Origin: a bacterium
Lineage (GTDB): Bacteria > Patescibacteriota > Minisyncoccia > Minisyncoccales > UBA10102
Length of the DNA: 34,891 bases
Direction: 5' to 3'
Assembly (NCBI GenBank): GCA_027624865.1
Contig: JAQBTT010000004.1
Coordinates: 1-34,891, forward strand
Positions 29,364-30,892 of this stretch are shown in pieces (the stretch's first letter is position 1; each line of letters opens with the position of its first letter). The position numbers were made by a program, and so were the translations under genes. The notes beneath the pieces are model-generated. The model did not search any database, was not told the origin of the DNA, and was given only the letters and a program-made list of their open reading frames with translations.

Positions 29364-29537
29364 AATCTATTTTTAATGTACCCCGCGCCATTCTTCTTTG
29401 CAATGGATTAAACATCGAAAAGAAACTAAGGTACACTATAAACATGGACAAAAACAAAGAAAGAAAATGGTGCGGGGTGTACCATATTTTCCTCTATAAT
29501 AAATATGACTGTAAAATAAGCAGTTAAAATAGCATAT

Positions 29538-29984
29538 ATGCCAATACTCGCAGAAAACAGAAAAGCACACCATGACTACCAAATCCTTGAAACGATTGAG
29601 GCGGGTTTGGTATTGATAGGGCAAGAGGTAAAAGCAATCCGCCAAGGAAAAATTCAACTAGCCGGTTCCTTTGTATCCTTTCGGGGATCAGAGCTTTTTT
29701 TACTTGGAGCTACTATTCCTCCCTATCAACCACAAAATGCACCCGCAAGTTATGATGCAGAGCGCGCAAGAAAGCTTCTGCTAAACAAAGAGGAACTCCG
29801 TTCCCTATTTGGGAGGGCAGCGCAGGAAGGATTGACTTTTGTGCCCTTAAAGGTGTATACTAGCAAAGCCAAGATTAAGCTTTCCTTTGGCATTGCCAGA
29901 GGGAAAAGAAAGGGAGATAAACGAGAACTCTTGCGAAAAAAAGAGGCCCAGCAAGAAATGCAAAGGGCGCTCAAACGGGGGTGA
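29538..29984 (+). CDS. smpB: SsrA-binding protein
   Basis: LAENRKAHHDYQILETIEAGLVLIGQEVKAIRQGKIQLAGSFVSF; C-terminal GKRKGDKRELLRKKEAQQEMQRALKRG. Confidence 0.97.
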   Translation: MPILAENRKAHHDYQILETIEAGLVLIGQEVKAIRQGKIQLAGSFVSFRGSELFLLGATIPPYQPQNAPASYDAERARKLLLNKEELRSLFGRAAQEGLTFVPLKVYTSKAKIKLSFGIARGKRKGDKRELLRKKEAQQEMQRALKRG

Positions 29985-30325
29985 ATTGTTTCGATAGGGG
30001 AAAGAGCATTAGTATGCAGACTGAGGTTCCAAGATACTCACAAAAAAACTTGGGGCACCATAAATGCCAACATATTTGGTCCACAACGGGCCCTTGCCTA
30101 CGCATAAAGCTTAGGCCATCTCTCCCTTGACCTCGATAGAGGAAAAGAGGTGTCAATCATCGAGCAAGGCATTGTTTCGCGATTCGGGAACCCTGCGACA
30201 TAAACAGAATCAAAAAGAAGAGGGGTTTTGCTCCGTTTTAACTCTCTTTTTCAACCAATGGGGCTATGTCTGAAGAAATACTAATGCAATATCTTCTAGA
30301 CGAGGGGTCATTCCCTCCACCTCCA
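29977..30325 (+). ncRNA. ssrA: tmRNA (transfer-messenger RNA)
   Basis: 5' GGGGGTGAATTGTTTCGATAGGGG; 3' AGACGAGGGGTCATTCCCTCCACCTCCA; acceptor GGGGGTG/CACCTCC; tag frame GCC AAC ATA TTT GGT CCA CAA CGG GCC CTT GCC TAC GCA TAA; directly after smpB. Confidence 0.88.
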
Positions 30326-30382
30326 CACCAAATTATCCTAACCTAAAGATTAAGACACCTTACAAAAGTTTGCCACAATAAT

Positions 30383-30892
30383 CTGACAAAAAAAATATAC
30401 ATAAACAAACAAATACGAGCAACTGAAGTTCGCTTAATTGATGAAACAGGTGCTCAAGCAGGTGTGATTCCTTTAGCGGAGGCACTTGTGCGAGCACAAA
30501 CAGCTGGCCTGGATCTTATCCAGGTAACCGAGAAGGTAGATCCTCCTGTAGTAAAGATTGCAGATTATGGAAAATACCTTTACCAACAAGGGAAAAAAGA
30601 CCGAGAGGTAAAAAAACATACCGGAGGAGACTTAAAGGAAATTCGTCTCAGTTTCAATATTTCAGACCACGATCTTGAAACAAGAGTAAAACAAGCAGAA
30701 AAGTTTTTAAAGAGAGGAGATAATATTCGAATTAATCTCAGGCTTAAGGGACGACAAAAAGCACTTATAGATCATGCTAAAGAGAAGATTCAAAAATTTA
30801 TAAATGAGCTCACCCTCTTAATCCCGATTCGAACAGAACGAGACATGAAGCTGGAACCTCGAGGATTAACGATGGTAATAACAAAGAAATAG
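30383..30892 (+). CDS. infC: Translation initiation factor IF-3 (non-canonical start)
   Basis: Conserved IYINKQIRATEVRLIDETG lies upstream of the first GTG (30464); C-terminus KEIRLSFNISDHDLETRVKQAEKFLKRGDNIRINLRLKGRQ. Confidence 0.9.
   Translation: MTKKIYINKQIRATEVRLIDETGAQAGVIPLAEALVRAQTAGLDLIQVTEKVDPPVVKIADYGKYLYQQGKKDREVKKHTGGDLKEIRLSFNISDHDLETRVKQAEKFLKRGDNIRINLRLKGRQKALIDHAKEKIQKFINELTLLIPIRTERDMKLEPRGLTMVITKK

Follow-up and report, generated by a model that had tools for sequence, protein, structure and literature searches.

In Carsonella ruddii, smpB is said to overlap ssrA, the gene for transfer-messenger RNA (tmRNA), an arrangement reportedly described by Mao et al. in 2009. A survey in which ssrA is the commonest neighbour of smpB describes how in Carsonella smpB runs into ssrA, so that tmRNA maturation would yield a non-stop smpB messenger RNA (mRNA), which was termed an interesting feedback, and reports the overlap from no other organism (Hudson, Lau & Williams 2014, PMC4131195). 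The maturation of the tmRNA 5' end by RNase P is established (PMC3985003), and a stop-less message is also known for arfA, the mRNA of which is made non-stop by RNase III (PMC4131195; PMC10107115). The smpB-ssrA locus described here lies in a stretch of 34,891 nucleotides (nt), referred to as the window (contig JAQBTT010000004.1, forward strand), from a 559-kb genome; among named groups, Candidatus Wildermuthbacteria and other Parcubacteria come closest to it. The last 8 nt of smpB are here also the first 8 nt of the tmRNA gene, and further upstream smpB codons spell a sigma70-type promoter motif, whose hexamers are conserved at the nucleotide level beyond what protein coding demands. The codon-embedded tmRNA promoter is the stronger finding of the two.

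Putative promoter hexamers within smpB codons

An internal tmRNA promoter within smpB, which a sequence-only reading of the window had proposed to look for, is predicted at 29832-29861 as TTGACT-N18-TATACT. The motif carries 10 of the 12 consensus letters about 115 nt upstream of the tmRNA, and the strict pattern is matched only once on the plus strand of the window, at this site. The survey of relatives covers 156 loci in which smpB precedes the tmRNA gene, all from the same class as the window, and 67 added loci from other classes in the phylum; of these 67, smpB lies upstream in 25. A scan of the loci for -10 hexamers shows a sharp peak about 115 nt upstream of the tmRNA, within smpB, and a second peak about 220 nt upstream, which resembles a Tyr-Asp coding motif (TATGAT). 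The motif common to the loci is TTGAC(A/T), 18 nt, TATANT, formed by the Leu-Thr and Tyr-(Thr/Asn/Ser) codons of a GLTxxPLxxY segment. In its strict form (TTGAC and TATANT) it is present in 146 of 181 linked loci, representing 89 of 107 family codes. If a spacing of 16-18 nt anywhere in smpB is allowed, it is found in 151 of the 181 linked loci and in none of 30 unlinked ones, and it follows the distance between the genes (135/154 at gaps up to 150 nt, 2/10 at gaps above 380 nt).

A control in which synonymous codons were shuffled within each gene, keeping protein and codon usage (500 runs), predicts the motif in 3.6 overlapping loci (at most 10 in any permutation) while 36 carry it; loci with a gap of 0-14 nt show 47 against 4.2 expected, and smpB genes unlinked to a tmRNA show 0 against 0.2. 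Synonymous constraint is highest at Leu-TTG (z = 23; TTG in 114 of 116) and at codon 108 (z = 12.7), the median being 1.1. The residue following Tyr is mostly encoded as Thr-ACT, Asn-AAT or Ser-AGT, each of which keeps TATANT, and Ser at this position is mostly AGT, a codon rare elsewhere in these smpB genes. A protein-driven coincidence is thus ruled out by the permutation and the unlinked controls. Linked loci also show a lesser excess of synonymous constraint (z 5-9) at codons 24-33 (29607-29636) and 64 (29727-29729).

These data bear directly on an account by compaction only, in which deletion bias in a reduced genome produced both the overlap and the spacing, and the TTGAC and TATANT codons merely follow the protein. 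The 559-kb genome, the dominance of gaps between -35 and 14 nt and the homoplasy of the overlap are in its favour, and for the overlap itself compaction is the likely account. The promoter part is disfavoured by the codon permutation, by the AGT serine codons and by the lack of the motif in any unlinked smpB, which makes compaction alone very improbable.

A promoter placed directly before the tmRNA is ruled out for the overlapping loci, since a -10 hexamer occupies that position in only 1 of 41, no more than in shuffled sequence. The same count favours a single long transcript, in which the smpB promoter is the sole source of tmRNA and some other nucleotide-level role, such as protein binding or an RNA element, falls to the conserved codons. 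However, the conserved letters coincide exactly with the two sigma70 hexamers, set 18 nt apart, and ordinary promoters replace them at unlinked tmRNAs (an own promoter at 34 of 49, against 10 by shuffling), so that this explanation deserves hardly any credence.

We therefore regard as clearly the most probable account a compacted smpB-ssrA unit transcribed at two levels, in which a promoter upstream of smpB would give a long smpB-tmRNA transcript and the embedded promoter (codons 99-108) a shorter precursor starting about 109 nt before the tmRNA. RNase P would cut the precursor at 29977 to form the tmRNA 5' end, and most likely the embedded promoter supplies the bulk of the tmRNA, its transcripts being trimmed in this way. 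Several points weigh against this account and call for caution. Start sites and 5' ends are placed from sequence alone, the 18-nt spacer is 1 nt longer than the sigma70 optimum, and RNase P RNA is represented in the genome by a sub-threshold match only, near a contig end. The loci are related and their counts are not independent events, yet adjacent synonymous sites vary freely. In favour of the account, distant loci without the embedded motif have an intergenic promoter more frequently (9/15 vs 7/41, p = 0.006), a comparison based on a small sample.

The overlap and the fate of the smpB message

That smpB and the tmRNA have 8 nt in common, as the sequence-only reading had pointed out, is borne out by the sequence, the open reading frame and the Rfam match. 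smpB ends CGG GGG TGA, the segment 29977-29984 (GGGGGTGA) being at the same time the 5' start of the tmRNA, so that the last two sense codons draw on tmRNA nt 1-5. The UGA is expected to be a genuine stop because release factor 2 (RF2) is encoded in the genome (match over cut-off), and an annotation error in which UGA is read as sense is ruled out by the presence of RF2 together with the same UGA end across the genus. The product is a full-length SmpB (NF003843 equivalog, 174.3 bits against a cut-off of 130, residues 3-147; Pfam PF01668), which aligns through the model end over its 148 amino acids and hence retains the C-terminal tail. On the RNA side, the acceptor stem GGGGGTG (29977-29983) forms 7 of 7 pairs with its 3' strand, among them the G3-U pair (G3-U70) of tmRNA and tRNA-Ala identity.

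The surveyed spacing of smpB and ssrA, another point that the reading had raised, shows the overlap to be recurrent. It occurs in 41 of the 156 class loci, by exactly 8 nt in 27, by 11 nt in 4 and by 1 to 35 nt in the others, and a further 44 class loci have a gap of 0-14 nt, so that gaps from -35 to 14 nt form the majority of the distribution. The register is fixed: besides the prevalence of 8 nt among the overlaps, 32 of the 41 use the frame that meets the UGA at tmRNA nt 6-8. This UGA would serve smpB as a ready-made stop because, of the stops that a frame entering the tmRNA encounters, it comes first and is the most common. The exact 8-nt overlap is found at 18 loci of the same order and is kept in 4 of 5 surveyed genomes of the genus; overlaps extend over 17 family codes, while in the other classes of the phylum only 1 of 25 loci with smpB upstream overlaps, by 12 nt. 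Judged from these loci, the overlap is more than chance. It is, however, ruled out as a clade-wide conserved trait by an SmpB tree (one short protein, deep branches weak) on which its state changes 34 times, against a mean of 36.2 for shuffled labels (minimum 31). Because this number is near the shuffled one, the overlap must often have been gained or lost, and it turns over near-randomly among relatives while the embedded promoter persists. Within the genus, genome G004 has lost the overlap and kept the embedded promoter; its smpB terminates at a TAG, 91 nt short of the tmRNA. The 91-nt spacer itself (locus L042) is hairpin-rich (-37 kcal/mol) and is perhaps a small palindromic element.

On a long transcript, RNase P cleavage would strip the final SmpB residues and the stop from the message. 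This consequence, that the cut leaves a non-stop smpB mRNA, had been anticipated by the reading and follows from the coordinates and from established tmRNA maturation (PMC3985003). The non-stop message would be cleared by trans-translation, likely as a by-product and possibly as a weak negative feedback. A ribosome on the shared stop would keep the acceptor stem from pairing and the cut would remove the stop, which should make the two events mutually exclusive on each long transcript. The proposed balance, in which one transcript yields either intact smpB mRNA or mature tmRNA, is weakened as a regulatory principle by the embedded promoter and by the near-random turnover of the overlap: precursors from the embedded promoter would never carry an intact smpB message, so that tmRNA could be supplied without using up smpB mRNA, and with a promoter that is most likely the tmRNA's own, the ratio of the two products need not be set by cleavage.

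The shared 8 nt could nevertheless be a selected autoregulatory switch, in which tmRNA maturation destroys smpB messages, truncated SmpB is tagged and less SmpB is made at high trans-translation capacity, as may be compared with arfA mRNA. The geometry makes stop loss chemically unavoidable on long transcripts, and the frequency of the overlap, its strong bias to one register and its retention in most of the genus are as such a switch would have it. Yet its state changes on the tree are near random, G004 carries the hairpin-rich stretch in place of the overlap with the promoter retained, the stop would survive cleavage at the 44 loci where it lies 0-14 nt before the tmRNA, and the embedded promoter would uncouple tmRNA supply, which together render a selected switch unlikely. 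We are equally doubtful about a device tuned against the embedded ssrA promoter, in which the read-through transcript both makes tmRNA and destroys its own SmpB message, and competition between RNase P and ribosomes for the shared stop sets tmRNA and SmpB levels. The overlap probably stems from compaction, with a UGA that was already in place put to a second use.

The tmRNA gene and its surroundings

The RF00023 model is matched end to end (model 1-374; gathering threshold 47 bits), and this is its sole match over cut-off in the genome. The match comprises a tRNA-like domain with T arm, a tag reading frame and pseudoknots; CCA is absent from the gene, in which A is followed by CAC. The tag peptide, with the resume codon placed by the Rfam consensus alignment, reads (A)ANIFGPQRALAYA and ends at a TAA close to the 3' limit of the region 30039-30107. 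An ARAGORN run reported no tmRNA at the locus, which was graded a tool miss. Among relatives, genome G021 carries, beside a tmRNA gene with an 8-nt smpB overlap, another that is unlinked (85.7 bits; contig C4, locus L063), and two tmRNA matches each are also present in G175, G214, G233, G315 and G339.

Features of the smpB-ssrA locus, in window coordinates
Feature	Position	Strand	Description
Candidate -10 TATAAT	29495..29500	+	upstream of smpB
smpB	29538..29984	+	148 amino acids, C-terminal ..ALKRG*, stop UGA = tmRNA nt 6-8
-35-like TTGACT	29832..29837	+	smpB codons 99-100, Leu-TTG Thr-ACT
-10-like TATACT	29856..29861	+	smpB codons 107-108, Tyr-TAT Thr-ACT; 18-nt spacer
tmRNA precursor 5' leader (predicted)	29868..29976	+	from promoter position; putative start about 7 nt after the -10
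8-nt overlap	29977..29984	+	last 2 nt of CGG, GGG and TGA of smpB = tmRNA nt 1-8
tmRNA gene (ssrA)	29977..30328	+	Rfam RF00023, 94.4 bits; mature RNA about 29977-30325 before CCA addition
Resume codon and tag reading frame region	30039..30107	+	read off the Rfam consensus alignment
3' acceptor strand CACCTCC	30318..30324	+	partner of 29977-29983

For smpB itself, a TTAAAAT near the ATG is an alternative to the -10 in the table and would give a leaderless mRNA. In relatives a -10 hexamer lies 4-8 nt before the smpB ATG in 59 of 129 cases against 9.8 in shuffled sequence, which suggests leaderless smpB messages. The divergent gene upstream of smpB is presumably argS. A repeat search at default settings found no inverted repeats upstream of smpB; by eye, an imperfect one can be seen between the two genes at 29370-29398 and 29463-29485 (GTACCCCGCGCCATTCTTCTTT / AAAGAAAATGGTGCGGGGTGTAC). 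Downstream of the tmRNA follow infC, rpmI and rplT. The apparent start of infC is an ATA at 30395 (30395-30403), the IF-3 alignment beginning at residue 3 of that reading; the list of open reading frames places the start later, at a GTG. Rare start codons are frequent in IF-3 genes. Elsewhere in the genome (contig C3, locus L173, 1390-1749) a 119-amino-acid GGQ protein with an RF-1 domain, whose best NCBIfam match is ArfB below cut-off, may possibly act as a backup rescue factor.

Relation to known systems

What was a one-endosymbiont oddity in the 2014 survey recurs here across a large radiation of bacteria, few of which are in culture. Selection acts on one stretch of DNA in two capacities, as code for SmpB protein and as putative tmRNA promoter, and the promoter apparently dictates an amino acid, admitting Thr, Asn or Ser (ANT codons) after the conserved Tyr. 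This offers a testable tmRNA start site for Patescibacteria and frames how non-stop feedback should be asked about. A literature search found no description of an ssrA promoter within smpB, the literature leaving room for such promoters in other phyla, and a text search of the 2025 tmRNA database paper yielded no passage on smpB/ssrA overlaps in this group.

As in Carsonella, the smpB coding sequence enters ssrA and its stop lies inside the tmRNA. In contrast to Carsonella, where SmpB is degenerate and lacks the C-terminal tail, SmpB is full length here, and the overlap keeps a fixed 8-nt register that reuses the tmRNA UGA across the 17 family codes. The feedback idea is thus already known, while the spread and the fixed register in this radiation appear to be new. 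With ordinary smpB-ssrA operons the locus shares an smpB directly upstream on the same strand and RNase P trimming, but the linked loci checked in Planctomycetes, Chloroflexi and Gammaproteobacteria have neither the overlap nor the embedded TTGAC/TATANT codons, and Coprothermobacter has half the motif (TTGACG but TATGTT). The likeness to arfA is that of a rescue factor with a stop-less message, repressed by trans-translation in arfA and hypothetically so here, with the difference that the cut would here be the tmRNA's own maturation. Finally, like other intragenic sigma70 promoters that serve downstream genes, the hexamers lie inside a coding sequence; unlike those, they are conserved at the codon level over a phylum-wide sample and go together with linkage to a single RNA gene.
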